The notes beneath the pieces are model-generated. The model did not search any database. It saw nothing but the letters and a program-made list of their open reading frames with translations, and had not been told where the DNA came from. DNA of 11,382 nt from assembly GCA_017481325.1 (NCBI GenBank), contig JAFUPG010000090.1, positions 1 to 11,382 on the forward strand, in the 5' to 3' direction. The position numbers and the translations under genes are program-made. The stretch comes from Oscillospiraceae bacterium (GTDB lineage: Bacteria; Bacillota_A; Clostridia; Oscillospirales; Oscillospiraceae). Positions 6,691 to 11,382 of the stretch are shown piece by piece (the stretch's first letter is position 1; each line of letters starts with the position of its first letter).

Positions 6691-6743
6691 TAAAAGATAG
6701 AATCAAAGCTGTCGAAAGGCGTTGCAAATAGATGAGGAGCCCT

Positions 6744-7481
6744 ATGAACCAGGATAATCTGACCCAAGAAGCTGTGGAAACCCCTGTTGAAGAAAAAACT
6801 CCCCAAAAGGAGAACAACAAAATACTCTGGATTTTGCTGGCAGCATTTACGTTGCTGCTGATGGTGGGTGGGATTGTCCTGCTCTGCCTCACTCGCCCAA
6901 CACCCATTGAATCCATTCAATTTGCCGCCACGGAGCTGGTGCTGAAGGAGGGGCAGAGCGCTCTTCCGGCTTACACGGTTGCTCCCTTGGATGCTGCCGT
7001 GGAGGATCTGCAGTGGAAAACCACCAACCGCTCTGTAGCAACGGTGACCAATGGCCTGATCACCGCCCATTCTGAGGGAAGCTGTATGATCTCTGTCTCT
7101 TCTGACAGTGGCGCAAAGGATACCCTGACCGTCAAGGTTGAGGCGCCGATCCTGGAAGAGGAAGCACCGGCGGTGGGCAACTGGCAACTCTTTGCCATGG
7201 CAGAGGGAGAGCAGATCCGCTATTTTTACAGCATTGAGGACAGCCTCTTTGTCCGGGAGAACCGGACGGCTTCCTTTACCTATGAGGAAAGGGAATACAT
7301 TATTGAGGACTGGCGATACGGCGGAAAAGAAGGGAGTTACACCCTGTTTACCTGCGAATCGGACGATTTACAGAGCGGTTTTTACTACTGCCGGGACGGC
7401 ACATCTCCCTATGACCGCTGCTTGATCATTCCGCTTCCCGAGGGGAAAACACTGATTTTCCACCGGGAAAACGAATCATAA
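6744..7481 (+). CDS. Single-BIG2 membrane protein, paralogue of the left-edge gene
   Basis: Encodes 245 residues. A short charged cytoplasmic N-terminus (1-26) is followed by one membrane span (about 27-49, ILWILLAAF...), one BIG2 domain (53-133; WKTTNRSVATVTNGLITAHSEGSC is cut here to its key parts WKTTN, VATV, LITA, EGSC), an acidic linker (LEEEAP) and a C-terminal beta domain (145-245) from GNW to LIFHRE. The span lacks a cleavage site, so it is predicted to be anchored with BIG2 outside. The C-terminal domain aligns with that of the gene ending at 1343 (GTW/GNW start, YF..E..L, W-Y core, LF-R/LIFHR end). Start: ATG 6744 has GAGGAG 4 nt upstream; an in-frame ATG four codons earlier has no ribosome site. 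It has its own promoter and terminator, so it is monocistronic. Function unknown. Confidence 0.88.
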   Translation: MNQDNLTQEAVETPVEEKTPQKENNKILWILLAAFTLLLMVGGIVLLCLTRPTPIESIQFAATELVLKEGQSALPAYTVAPLDAAVEDLQWKTTNRSVATVTNGLITAHSEGSCMISVSSDSGAKDTLTVKVEAPILEEEAPAVGNWQLFAMAEGEQIRYFYSIEDSLFVRENRTASFTYEEREYIIEDWRYGGKEGSYTLFTCESDDLQSGFYYCRDGTSPYDRCLIIPLPEGKTLIFHRENES

Positions 7482-7486
7482 AGTAA

Positions 7487-7529
7487 AGGCTGCTGCAAGA
7501 CTCGGGTCTTGCAGCAGCCTCTTTCATTT
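7487..7529. terminator. Shared terminator between the second BIG2 gene and the 47-aa gene
   Basis: A perfect 14-bp stem AGGCTGCTGCAAGA (7487-7500) with TCTTGCAGCAGCCT (7507-7520), loop CTCGGG, and the T-rich tail CTTTCATTT (7521-7529). It lies 5 nt after the plus-strand stop codon. On the minus strand the stem is followed by TTTACTTTA and lies 7 nt past the stop codon at 7528, so it can serve both. Confidence 0.9.
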
Positions 7530-7671
7530 ACAGTTCCTTGGGCGGCAGGGGCAGGGGAGCGGGGCGGAGTACAGTCTCCTCCGGCGAGACGAAACGCCCG
7601 CTGTGGATCTGGGGCAATTTAGGGTCGTGGAGCTCACTGTGCCGCTGTGGTGCTTTTTCCGGATGTTCCAT
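7528..7671 (-). CDS. Small proline-rich protein (47 aa), possible forespore product
   Basis: Reads as 47 residues starting MEHPEKAPQRHSELHD and ending RPAPLPLPPKEL, then TAA. GGAGGG lies 7 nt before the ATG and a shared terminator follows the stop codon. It is rich in Pro (11) and His, with no membrane span, signal peptide or cysteine. I do not recognise the family. Upstream on the same strand is GTATA-17 nt-CATACTA, which resembles a SigG (forespore) promoter, so a spore-associated role is possible (inference). The frame is too short for coding statistics to decide; the support is the ribosome site, the promoter-like and terminator signals and the clean fit between them. Confidence 0.6.
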   Translation of the reverse strand: MEHPEKAPQRHSELHDPKLPQIHSGRFVSPEETVLRPAPLPLPPKEL

Positions 7672-7689
7672 GATGAATCCCTCCGACGG

Positions 7690-7718
7690 TAGTATGCGTC
7701 ACCACGGCAGTGCTATAC
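7690..7718 (-). promoter_or_regulatory. Candidate SigG/SigF-like promoter of the 47-aa gene
   Basis: On the minus strand, GTATA (7714-7718) and CATACTA (7690-7696) are 17 nt apart. Forespore SigG promoters in Bacillus have a G-n-ATA-like -35 and a CATnnTA -10 at about this distance. The leader would be about 11 nt and includes GGAGGG. A TTGACG at 7718-7723 has no -10 at 16-18 nt, so a SigA promoter is not supported. Confidence 0.4.
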
Positions 7719-7761
7719 GTCAAAGGGGGCATCCTTTGCGCAAAAAGAAAAAAACATGCCA

Positions 7762-7780
7762 TAGAAATTGTGCATTTCTA
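7762..7780. promoter_or_regulatory. Inverted repeat upstream of the secreted hydrolase promoter
   Basis: TAGAAAT (7762-7768) and ATTTCTA (7774-7780) are perfect 7-bp arms around TGTGC. The centre (7771) is about 63 bp upstream of the predicted transcript start, on the position used by class I activators. The bound protein is unknown. Confidence 0.45.
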
Positions 7781-7798
7781 CAAAGTTATTTTCGGCTA

Positions 7799-7827
7799 TG
7801 GACAGGCAATCAAAGGAATGGTATAAT
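7799..7827 (+). promoter_or_regulatory. SigA promoter of the secreted multidomain hydrolase
   Basis: TGGACA (7799-7804, 5 of 6 matches), a 17-nt spacer, extended -10 TG (7819-7820) and perfect TATAAT (7822-7827). The predicted start near 7834 gives a leader of about 49 nt. Confidence 0.85.
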
Positions 7828-7836
7828 GATCTTGAA

Positions 7837-7857
7837 TGTATGACGTTTCGTCACACA
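7837..7857 (+). promoter_or_regulatory. Leader hairpin of the secreted hydrolase mRNA
   Basis: TGACG (7841-7845) pairs with CGTCA (7849-7853) around loop TTT. After one A-C mismatch, TGT (7837-7839) pairs with ACA (7855-7857). It begins just after the predicted transcript start and ends 11 nt before the ribosome site AAAGGAG (7868-7874). It could stabilise the 5' end or be a DNA operator. Confidence 0.4.
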
Positions 7858-7882
7858 TATTATTAAAAAAGGAGATTTGCCT

Positions 7883-10800
7883 ATGAAGAAGCTCATTTCC
7901 CTTCTGCTGGCTTTGGCTCTGGTGCTGTCTATTCTGCCTGCCACCCTTGCCGCTCCCGCAGAAAAAGGTGCAGAGGATATTGTCATTCTCTACACCAACG
8001 ACGTCCACACTTATATCGACAAGCCCCTGTCCTATGACAATATTGCCGATATGAAGACCACCCTGGCGGCTGAAAATGCCGGTGTTCTGCTGGTTGATGC
8101 CGGCGACCACATCCAGGGTACTGCATTTGGCTCTATGGACAAGGGCGAGACCATCATCGAGCTCATGAACGCAGCCGGCTATGACCTGGCAACTCTGGGC
8201 AACCACGAGTTTGACTATGGCATGGAGCGTGCGCTGGAGCTGGTGGGTAAGGCTGAGTTCCCCTATGTCTCTGCCAACTTCTACCATGAGAAGGACGGCG
8301 TCAAGGGCGAGACCGTTCTCGATGCCTACAAGGTATTTGAGATCGGCGGCAAGAAGATCGCTCTGATCGGCATTACCACTCCCGAATCCTTCACCAAGTC
8401 CACCCCCGCCTACTTCCAGGATGAGAATGGCAACTACATCTACGGCATTGGCGGCGGCACTGACGGCGCTGCTCTGTACGCTGATGTGCAGGCTGCCATC
8501 GACGCTGCTTCTGCAGAGGCTGACTATGTCATCGCTCTGGGCCACTGCGGCGACGATCCCGCTTCCAAGCCCTGGACTTCCGAAGAAGTCATTGCCAATA
8601 CCACCGGCCTGGATGCCTTCATCGACGGCCACTCCCATTCCACCGTTCCCGGTAAGGAAGTCACCGACAAGGGCGGCAAGACCGTCCTGCTGACCCAGAC
8701 CGGCGAGTACTTCGGCGCCATCGGCAAGATGACCATTGGCGCAGAGGGCATCACCACCGAGCTGGTTACCGAGTGGACAGGCTCCAACGCTGATGTTGCT
8801 GCCATCAAGACCGCTTGGGTCGAAGAGGTCAACGGCCTCCTGGGCGAAGTCATCGGCTCCACCGAGCTGACCCTGGCCAACCACGATGCCGAGGGCAACC
8901 GTATGGTTCGTAAGTACGAGACCAACACCGGCGACTTCTGCGCCGATGCTCTGTACTGGCTCTTCGACAGCATGGATATGGATGTTGACGTTGCCATCAT
9001 GAATGGCGGCGGCGTCCGTAACGGCGCTGTTACCGGCGAAATTTCCTACCTGACCTGCAAGACCATCCACACCTTCGGCAACGTCGCCTGCCTGCAGACC
9101 GTCACCGGCCAGCAGATCATCGACGCTCTGGAGTGGGGCGCTCGTCAGACTCCCATTGCGGAAGTCGGCGGCTTCCTCCATGTCTCCGGCATCACCTATA
9201 AGGTCGAGAGCAACACCGAGACCACCGTCCAGCAGGACGACAAGGGCGTATGGATCGGCGGCCCCACCGGCGAGTACCGTGTCTATGACGTCAAGGTCTA
9301 CGACAAGGAAACCAATACCTATGTGGATATCGATCCCGAGGCCAAGTACAACATGGCCGGCTATAACTACACCCTCCGTGATCTGGGCGACGGCTTCGCC
9401 ATGTTTGACGGCGCTGTGAACGTCCTGGACTATGTCTCCGAGGACTATCAGGTTCTGGCTACCTACGTCAAGGCCTTCGAGGATGGTAAGATCGAAGCCA
9501 CCAACTCCCCCCTGCTTGCCAAGTACCCCGGTATGCTCTTGGACTACGGCACTGTCAATGGCTCCGGCCGTATCGAAGTGTCTGAGTACGAGGAAGTTTG
9601 GGATGGCGTTATCACCATCGGCGGCCTGGAGCCCAACCTCTGGACCACCAAGTACGGCAACGTCTACACCGACTGCTCTGCTGAGCATTTCACCGAGGAT
9701 CTGGGTCTGGCCTGGGGCGACCTGGCAACCGTCAAGTTCCTGGATAAGGAACTGGTTCTGCCCGTAGTACCCGACTACTCCTATGTTGACTCCGGCAAGC
9801 CCGCTCTGCTGCTTGGCAAGAATGAGCAGGGCAATCCCACCGGCTATGCCTTCATGGCTATCAACATGGGCAACTTCCTGGAGACCTACGGCATCGCCTA
9901 CAAGGGTACCGATGCTGACGGCAACTGGTACTGGACCGCCTACGAAGGCGTGGAATTCCCCATTGTTGTTACCTTCGAGCTCTACGAGAAGGAAGGCTAC
10001 ATGGCCGAGTACCTGCTCCACGAGCTGAACCGCACCAACAACCGTGAGGATTATCCCGACCTGACCGACGAGGAGTTCGCAAACTTCCGTGAGGTCACCA
10101 CCAACGGCATGGGCGACGATACCCTGTATCGCTCCTCCAGCCCCATCAACCCCGAGATCGGCCGTAACACCTATGCCGATGCCGCCATGGAAGCTGCTGG
10201 TGTCAAGACCGTCATCAACCTGGCTGACAGCGAGACCTCCGCAGCCGCATATCCCGGCTTTGCAGAGACCTACTACTCCCAGCAGAATGTTATCTACCTG
10301 AACCTGGGCGTGGACTTCGCTGCTGAGGACTTCCAGGAGGGTCTGGCCAACGGCCTGCGCTTTATGATCGCTAATGAAGGCCCCTACCTGGTCCACTGCA
10401 CCGAGGGCAAGGACCGTGCAGGCTTCGTCAATGCTGTTCTGGAGTGCCTGATGGGCGCTACCATTGATGAAGTCGTCGAAGACTATATGGTCACCTATTA
10501 CAACTACTATGGCGTGGAGCCCGGCACCGAGAAGTACGATGCCATTGCGAACAGCAACATTCTCAAGTCTCTGGCAACCGCTTTCGAGAATGATAGCATT
10601 TCTTCCGATACGGACATGAGCGCTGAGGCAGAGGAATATCTGCTTGCCATCGGTCTGACGGAAGGCGAAATCGTTGCACTGCGTAGTGTGCTTGGCCCCC
10701 GTGTTGTTTTTGATTCTTACGTTGAAGAGGTCACTGTAGATTCTTCTATTCGTGAGGAAGGCAAGATTCCCGCATACATCACATTGCCCGGCTACTATAC

Positions 10801-11382
10801 GCCTGGTGAAGAATGGCCTGTGGTCTTCATGATCCACGGCCATGGCGGCAACCACAACGAGTGGGGCGGCTATGACACCATTTCCGATGGCCTGGCTGAG
10901 AACGGCATCATTGCCGTCACCCTGGACTTCCCCGGCTGTGGCGCAAGCACCGAGTCCTTCACCCTGAACACTATGACCAATATGAAGCAGGATGTTCTGG
11001 ATGTCATTGCTTATGTTTGCGAGAACTACAGCATTGACCAGGATCGAATCGGCGGCTTCGGCTATTCCATGGGCGGCCGTATCATCCTGGAGCTGACGGC
11101 TGAAGAGCTGTACGAGTTCGATACCATCGAGTTCGTCGCTCCTGCAGAAGATCTGGAAGACCTGAAGAACCTCTTCGGCGGAGCCGAGAACTGGGAGGTT
11201 CTGAAGGCCGAGGCCAACGAGAACGGCTTCGTTATGTACTCCACCATCTACTCCACCCTGCCTCTGAGCAAGGAGTGGTTCGCAGATCTGGAGAAGTATC
11301 CCGACGGTCTGATGGAGCTGGCTGCTGAGAAGTACACCGGCAACTCCATGGTCTTCTGGGCCACCGACGACGCCGCTGTCTC
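7883..11382 (+). CDS. Secreted multidomain hydrolase: 5'-nucleotidase + SAM_HAT_C-like + tyrosine phosphatase + alpha/beta hydrolase (3' end outside window)
   Basis: One uninterrupted frame of 1166 visible residues, starting with AAAGGAG 8 nt upstream. Signal peptide 1-23/24 (MKKLISLLLALALVLS...TLA-A). Residues 33-300: metallophosphatase with metal motifs TNDVH (38-42), DAGD (72-75), GNHEFD (106-111), GHCG (220-223) and DGHSHS (248-253). Residues 320-540: 5'-nucleotidase C-terminal domain with ETNTGDF (346-352), NGGGVR (374-379) and LGDGFAMF (501-508). Residues 575-700: module like the SAM-hydroxide adenosyltransferase C-terminal domain (YGNVYTD, AINMGNF). Residues 710-900: Y_phosphatase3-type domain, RSSSPIN (750-756) and P-loop HCTEGKDRAG with Cys839 and Arg845. 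Residues 955-1166: alpha/beta hydrolase, oxyanion HGHGG (985-989), nucleophile Ser1062 in GYSMGG; WATDD (1159-1163) may carry the acid. Predicted to act outside the cell on nucleotides, phospho-esters and an ester substrate. All visible catalytic residues are intact. No wall anchor is seen within the window. Confidence 0.92.
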   Translation, partial: MKKLISLLLALALVLSILPATLAAPAEKGAEDIVILYTNDVHTYIDKPLSYDNIADMKTTLAAENAGVLLVDAGDHIQGTAFGSMDKGETIIELMNAAGYDLATLGNHEFDYGMERALELVGKAEFPYVSANFYHEKDGVKGETVLDAYKVFEIGGKKIALIGITTPESFTKSTPAYFQDENGNYIYGIGGGTDGAALYADVQAAIDAASAEADYVIALGHCGDDPASKPWTSEEVIANTTGLDAFIDGHSHSTVPGKEVTDKGGKTVLLTQTGEYFGAIGKMTIGAEGITTELVTEWTGSNADVAAIKTAWVEEVNGLLGEVIGSTELTLANHDAEGNRMVRKYETNTGDFCADALYWLFDSMDMDVDVAIMNGGGVRNGAVTGEISYLTCKTIHTFGNVACLQTVTGQQIIDALEWGARQTPIAEVGGFLHVSGITYKVESNTETTVQQDDKGVWIGGPTGEYRVYDVKVYDKETNTYVDIDPEAKYNMAGYNYTLRDLGDGFAMFDGAVNVLDYVSEDYQVLATYVKAFEDGKIEATNSPLLAKYPGMLLDYGTVNGSGRIEVSEYEEVWDGVITIGGLEPNLWTTKYGNVYTDCSAEHFTEDLGLAWGDLATVKFLDKELVLPVVPDYSYVDSGKPALLLGKNEQGNPTGYAFMAINMGNFLETYGIAYKGTDADGNWYWTAYEGVEFPIVVTFELYEKEGYMAEYLLHELNRTNNREDYPDLTDEEFANFREVTTNGMGDDTLYRSSSPINPEIGRNTYADAAMEAAGVKTVINLADSETSAAAYPGFAETYYSQQNVIYLNLGVDFAAEDFQEGLANGLRFMIANEGPYLVHCTEGKDRAGFVNAVLECLMGATIDEVVEDYMVTYYNYYGVEPGTEKYDAIANSNILKSLATAFENDSISSDTDMSAEAEEYLLAIGLTEGEIVALRSVLGPRVVFDSYVEEVTVDSSIREEGKIPAYITLPGYYTPGEEWPVVFMIHGHGGNHNEWGGYDTISDGLAENGIIAVTLDFPGCGASTESFTLNTMTNMKQDVLDVIAYVCENYSIDQDRIGGFGYSMGGRIILELTAEELYEFDTIEFVAPAEDLEDLKNLFGGAENWEVLKAEANENGFVMYSTIYSTLPLSKEWFADLEKYPDGLMELAAEKYTGNSMVFWATDDAAV

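Follow-up and report, generated by a model that had tools for sequence, protein, structure and literature searches.

MptpB-type phosphatases are familiar mainly as virulence factors, and multi-enzyme surface proteins anchored by SLH domains, SLH xylanases among them, occur in Clostridia. The P-loop signature HCXXGKDR[TA]G of the atypical lipid phosphatases was defined on the virulence phosphatase MptpB (PMC3091653), and a soil phytase carries the same signature. We analysed a stretch of 11,382 nucleotides (the window), in which one long gene encodes a phosphatase module (PTP) sharing this P-loop and the MptpB fold with MptpB-type enzymes and with Pho16B (PMC6409689). Unlike those enzymes, PTP is tethered to other enzymes and, in homologues, to SLH domains, and it is preceded by a SAM_HAT_C-like barrel (SHC), which lies immediately N-terminal to 194 of the 196 PTP modules compared here, so that SHC and PTP look like one cassette. 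The barrel is shared with the SAM-hydroxide adenosyltransferases, SalL and fluorinase (DUF62), where it forms the C-terminus behind an N-terminal domain that is absent with SHC. The 5'-nucleotidases of the UshA, CD73 and NT5E type (PF00149 plus PF02872) have both domains, the metal and substrate motifs and export in common with the nucleotidase module (NUC), but NUC is one module within a larger protein and scores far under the NCBIfam cut-offs listed. Cinnamoyl and feruloyl esterases (GthFAE, LJ0536, Est1E) and the Thermoanaerobacter lipase TTL share the fold, nucleophile elbow and Ser-Asp insertion of the alpha/beta-hydrolase module (ABH), but are stand-alone enzymes with 19-26% identity to the module of a relative, P0121. 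The SLH-anchored proteins of Clostridia resemble the full-length homologues P0003 and P0004 in their SLH tail and row of enzyme modules, while the module set differs. No paper on this architecture was found by title in the open-access literature, a scope outside which most subscription papers fall.

The reading frame was free of stops from its ATG to the window end (Table 1). Two promoter-like sites were found within 7400-8000 against a shuffle mean of 0.6, as consensus matches only. Pfam matches, judged against curated cut-offs, followed the order Metallophos (43.6 bits, cut-off 21.5), 5_nucleotid_C (77, cut-off 23.6), SAM_HAT_C (26.5, just above its cut-off of 25.5), Y_phosphatase3 (48.7, cut-off 22.2) and alpha/beta-hydrolase families (Hydrolase_4 35.9, cut-off 27). 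A sequence-only reading of this DNA had proposed a four-part secreted hydrolase with catalytic motifs of three unrelated enzyme classes in a single frame, and these matches bear it out in its main lines: TNDVH, GNHEFD, DGHSHS, HCTEGKDR and GYSMGG were all located, the SAM_HAT_C-like and hydrolase regions both matched profiles (Pfam, and PDB for SHC), and 10560-10800 held no stop, although this stretch is anomalous in third-position GC content (GC3) and identity.

Table 1. Features of the multi-enzyme gene and its upstream region (positions in the window; residues of the encoded protein).
Feature	Position	Strand	Residues and details	Basis
Terminator-like hairpin upstream of gene	7485..7522	both		pattern scan
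Promoter-like site	7799..7827	+	TGGACA-17-TATAAT, TG before -10; 11/12	pattern scan
Probable ribosome-binding site	7870..7874	+	AGGAG, 8 bases 5' of ATG 7883	read from sequence
Reading frame	7883..11380	+	1-1166 of about 1525-1531, cut by window end	ORF translation; homologues P0003, P0004
Signal peptide	7883..7954	+	about 1-24	judged by eye from sequence
NUC	7976..9577	+	32-565	Pfam, own profile, alignments to Thermus 5'-nucleotidase and UshA
NUC motifs		+	TNDVH 38-42, AGD 73-75, GNHEFD 106-111, DGHSHS 248-253, NGGGVR 374-379	sequence
SHC	9647..10108	+	589-742; KYGN, YSYVD, AINMGNF motifs	Pfam, PDB profile match, fold match
PTP	10124..10693	+	748-937; HCTEGKDRAG 838-847 (Cys839, Lys843, Asp844, Arg845)	Pfam, signature, fold
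Junction stretch	10583..10852	+	901-990; low identity to otherwise near-identical allele	identity profile; GC3 minimum at codons 898-957
ABH	10727..11380	+	949-1166, truncated; HGHGG 985-989, Ser1062, Asp1163	Pfam, alignment, P0003

Both NUC domains aligned to Thermus 5'-nucleotidase, and UshA aligned in pieces. The module combines Metallophos, 5_nucleotid_C and the metal-ligand motifs of the UshA/CD73 family; we take D40/H42, D75, N107/H108 and H250/H252 to be the metal ligands, and NGGGVR, FGN and GDGF to be the substrate-side motifs. All six nucleotidase patterns were kept in 123 of the 153 NUC modules longer than 450 residues. Its scores lay far under every cut-off of the NCBIfam nucleotidase models listed, including the cell-surface ecto-5'-nucleotidase model NF040549 (154.9 bits, cut-off 1050). 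By these domains and motifs, NUC is a predicted complete two-metal 5'-nucleotidase of the UshA/CD73 type.

For SHC, a profile search of the PDB returned 2zbu at an E-value of 2.1e-12 with an agreeing fold match, and SAM_HAT_C was missing from the precomputed Pfam lists of P0002 (the window's own database copy), P0005 and P0011. Pfam detected no N-terminal domain of DUF62 in the window protein, nor in P0003 and P0005, and the residues N-terminal to the barrel are nucleotidase. The module has the C-terminal domain of the SAM-hydroxide adenosyltransferases, but we did not file the protein among them because the N-terminal domain is absent, and a role as active SAM hydrolase was rejected for lack of the other half. 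By aligned range in the PDB profile search, the Asn of the SHC (F/Y)GN motif falls at N215 of fluorinase; the Ser-Arg of SalL, presumably equivalent to S269/R270 of fluorinase, lies opposite SHC consensus positions that do not match it. Judged by sequence, SHC is thus the C-terminal domain of these enzymes without its partner, and the earlier SAM_HAT_C-like label holds for the barrel alone. It would probably have no catalytic role of its own and may shape or support the phosphatase.

The P-loop of PTP fits HCXXGKDR[TA]G, a signature observed in 183 of 197 PTP modules (HCXXGKDR in 186 of 197), and the module has the MptpB fold. The CX5R loop that had led to the label of Cys- or tyrosine-phosphatase is present, but by signature and fold PTP is of the MptpB-type atypical lipid phosphatase kind. 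Cys839 would act as nucleophile, Arg845 would hold the phosphate, Asp844 would serve as acid/base and Lys843 in substrate binding, roles that make inositol phosphates, phosphoinositides or phosphoproteins the candidate substrates. The window protein did not match the PTP-SAK family (PF22784) at an E-value of 0.001; among relatives this family scored 22.3 in P0005, against a curated cut-off of 27, and 54.6 in P0008. No source paper for its Pfam name, 'Swiss Army Knife', was found in the open-access literature.

The nucleophile elbow of ABH, GYSMGG, holds Ser1062, and GYSMG was kept in 46 of 49 modules. The catalytic His falls outside the window and is supplied by P0003 and P0004 in GHSYGFY, completing an alpha/beta-hydrolase fold with a Ser-Asp-His triad. 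Fold evidence came from P0121, whose ABH is 62.6% identical; its AlphaFold model is poor overall (whole-model pLDDT 66.2) and only the ABH part was taken. The best fold match of this part was a lipase, and TTL scored as high as the feruloyl esterases. In the model ABH most resembles feruloyl/cinnamoyl esterases and a lipase, with a putative preference for hydroxycinnamates. We also observed ABH fused to FMN_bind and FAD_binding_2 domains in P0151 and P0152, a possible exported esterase-reductase for hydroxycinnamates; in P0151, the flavin reductase-like part joined to ABH gives only a hint of a preference for hydroxycinnamoyl esters.

Two full-length homologues extend the protein beyond the window. 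The four modules of the window protein have counterparts in P0003 (1531 aa) with 97.6-100% identity (98.6% for ABH), and P0004 (1524 aa) is 99% identical over window residues 500-1166. Both continue with the end of the hydrolase, including the esterase His, a second degenerate barrel (SHC') and three SLH domains, which were observed by Pfam in P0003 and P0005 and by our own profile in P0003, P0004 and P0005. SHC' occupies residues 1226-1335 of P0003, before the SLH repeats, with counterparts in P0122-P0125; in P0003 it scored a weak 47 bits by our own profile, and Pfam gave a single stretch. Given the SLH domains of its homologues, the window protein is probably held at the S-layer or cell wall. 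The earlier description as a four-part secreted hydrolase therefore needs amending: the four modules and the signal peptide are there, but the protein is incomplete in the window and probably anchored rather than simply secreted. A 2-Mb genome (G001) had 44 additional matches, almost all of which hit the SLH region, showing an organism rich in SLH proteins.

A host-directed surface factor, in which the nucleotidase would produce immunosuppressive adenosine and the MptpB-like phosphatase would strip host phosphoinositides or phosphotyrosines, could draw on the relation of NUC to CD73 and to NF040549 (far under its cut-off), and on the P-loop signature having first been set on a virulence phosphatase. 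We consider it unlikely, since the SLH domains suggest retention at the bacterial wall, no route into host cells was seen, the soil phytase has the same signature, and fusion to a possible plant-ester esterase fits poorly. The sources of the relatives point the same way: most of the 79 source-named loci belong to MAGs from herbivore guts, others to poultry-associated genomes and to three genomes of Faecalibacterium prausnitzii, and most of these matches covered the nucleotidase only.

To compare module orders we used 154 proteins, namely the 120 best of 1799 (P0002 included) and 34 further of 46, drawn from candidates of 0.55-1.75 times the query length that shared short words (in the main search the top 7988 by words were scored). 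With SLH and adjacent SHC hits collapsed, 23 orders of NUC, SHC, PTP and ABH were observed, a count that includes proteins cut by contig ends and single-module strings. SLH domains were present in 84 of the 154. All four modules were present in 28, counting the window's own copy, and were arranged in seven orders. The exact order NUC-SHC-PTP-ABH-SHC' was complete in only three clusters (P0003, P0004 and P0005), in addition to the truncated window copy, and the fragment P0115 has the same order as P0003. The order NUC-ABH-SHC-PTP was observed in 18 proteins, and one of these clusters alone (P0134) stands for 5704 sequences. The fusion had been called unusual, which applies to the exact order and not to the set of four modules: the window gene combines common, shuffled surface modules in a rare order. 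Since relatives carry the same parts in other orders, it seems to be one outcome of a nutrient-scavenging toolkit whose parts are swapped around. On a tree of ABH the order labels required 20 changes against a minimum of 11; because the branch of one sequence (P0153_2) is very long and, of 41 inner branches, 15 were open, we used this tree just as support for repeated reordering.

An SHC-PTP query matched 56 of 300 genomes sampled from the family of the nearest genome and 10 of 398 from its phylum (E up to 1e-10; G001 counted in both samples), which agrees with the earlier statement that the pair recurs. In 16 of the 56 family genomes the best match began at query residue 98 or later, so that it shows the phosphatase but hardly any or nothing of the barrel. 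In the phylum sample we observed six SHC-PTP frames of 378-421 codons (L144, L148-L152), and such small stand-alone frames are likely the ancestral form.

The modules might instead be kept mainly as exposed, recombining domains, for example to vary phage or antibody binding, with catalysis secondary. The 23 orders in 154 proteins would suit such a role, as would SHC', which is 30-40% identical in many allele pairs with far closer flanking modules (39.8% between P0122 and P0123, against 90-98% for the other six modules). Yet P0003 and P0122 are 91.8% identical in SHC', the catalytic motifs of all three enzymes are strongly kept, and divergence of SHC' can reflect relaxed constraint once its phosphatase is lost; we regard this role as improbable. 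The SHC' pattern itself points to SHC' having been replaced in some lines, or to weaker constraint after phosphatase loss.

A further irregularity lies between PTP and ABH. Over residues 901-990 the window protein matched P0122 at 47 of 89 positions, while the flanking residues 589-900 and 991-1166 matched at 455 of 488 (Fisher p 3e-19, for a stretch picked after viewing the profile). The lowest 60-codon GC3 of the gene overlaps this stretch (0.42 against a mean of 0.73; none of 2000 shuffles as low). P0122 is 97.4% identical to P0003 in its first NUC, 98.1% in SHC, 89.9% in ABH and 93.1% in SLH, and has an extra nucleotidase between PTP and ABH. PTP is out of pattern, with 80.4% identity between P0003 and P0122 and 98.4% between P0122 and P0123. 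The nearest contig by identity, from a goat-cecum MAG (L001), matches window 7511-10584 at 90% DNA identity, beyond which it runs into a second nucleotidase. Another contig of its genome carries an ABH-SHC-SLH tail (94% DNA identity over window 11048-11382), so that this genome probably encodes the longer form, interrupted by a gap between contigs. An upstream Ig-like (Big_2) gene (window 6732-7481) has a counterpart at 1730-2464 of the goat-cecum contig with 69% protein identity, and the locus is thus partly syntenic there.

The shift in codon usage and identity, and the nucleotidase in this place on the goat-cecum contig, would also be expected had an assembly fused two proteins into the P0003-type order. 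This is very unlikely: the junction recurs with small substitutions in P0003 and P0004, which lie on separate contigs, and is hence no artefact of one contig; the fragment P0115 repeats the order, and P0005 has an analogous junction with its four modules 75-83% identical to P0003. Residues 901-990 are probably a recombination scar rather than a sequencing error, and we read the identity and GC3 pattern as module-moving recombination, by either gain or loss of the second nucleotidase. More tentatively, and with some doubt, gut Oscillospiraceae may have a surface-enzyme module-exchange system in which the whole cassettes NUC, SHC-PTP and ABH are gained, lost or reordered through recombination between close strains, leaving divergent low-GC3 scars and a highly variable SHC'. 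If so, which extracellular phosphates and esters can be used, or what binds the cell surface, may vary between strains of one species.

We favour, with moderate confidence, an exported and probably S-layer-anchored modular enzyme that salvages phosphate, nucleosides and ester-bound acids from predicted substrates. The product would be an exported multi-enzyme from a gut bacterium that is uncultured and probably belongs to the Oscillospiraceae; its modules would sit side by side at the surface and draw on lysed plant, microbial or host material. The nucleotidase would convert nucleotides to nucleoside and phosphate, and the esterase would release hydroxycinnamate-type or other acyl esters. Recombination shifting whole modules would have given rise to the architecture, including this allele, which is without the second nucleotidase that near-identical alleles carry between phosphatase and esterase. 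Nutrient salvage fits at least as well as the host-directed adenosine and sequential action suggested earlier, and nothing was found in support of modules acting 'in sequence' or of adenosine generated near host cells. The locus ties MptpB-type phosphatases to probably surface-anchored gut-bacterial enzymes, with nearly every PTP here paired with an adenosyltransferase-derived barrel, and points to enzyme modules exchanged within one surface gene between near-identical relatives. It also gives testable predictions on phosphate and ester salvage in the gut.

A phage origin was rejected, since megablast against the phage collection returned nothing and the pattern search of viral contigs was likewise negative. 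A defence system was rejected as well (no PADLOC match for P0003). Sixteen SHC-PTP neighbourhoods were considered, of which 12 had a gene with the motif pattern (L157, L160, L161 and L171 were dropped, the pattern being absent); one of the 12, L170, encodes a 1094-aa protein and is not stand-alone. Among the 64 ORFs beside these 12 genes no Pfam family occurred in more than two, and one ORF was a 5'-nucleotidase. The genes nearby in the window, among them those for PEP carboxykinase, glutamate racemase and Ig-like proteins, are unrelated and give no pointer to a substrate. Opposite the multi-enzyme gene, a frame of 1194 aa was observed on the minus strand (7796-11380), which we attribute to biased codon usage in the plus-strand gene.
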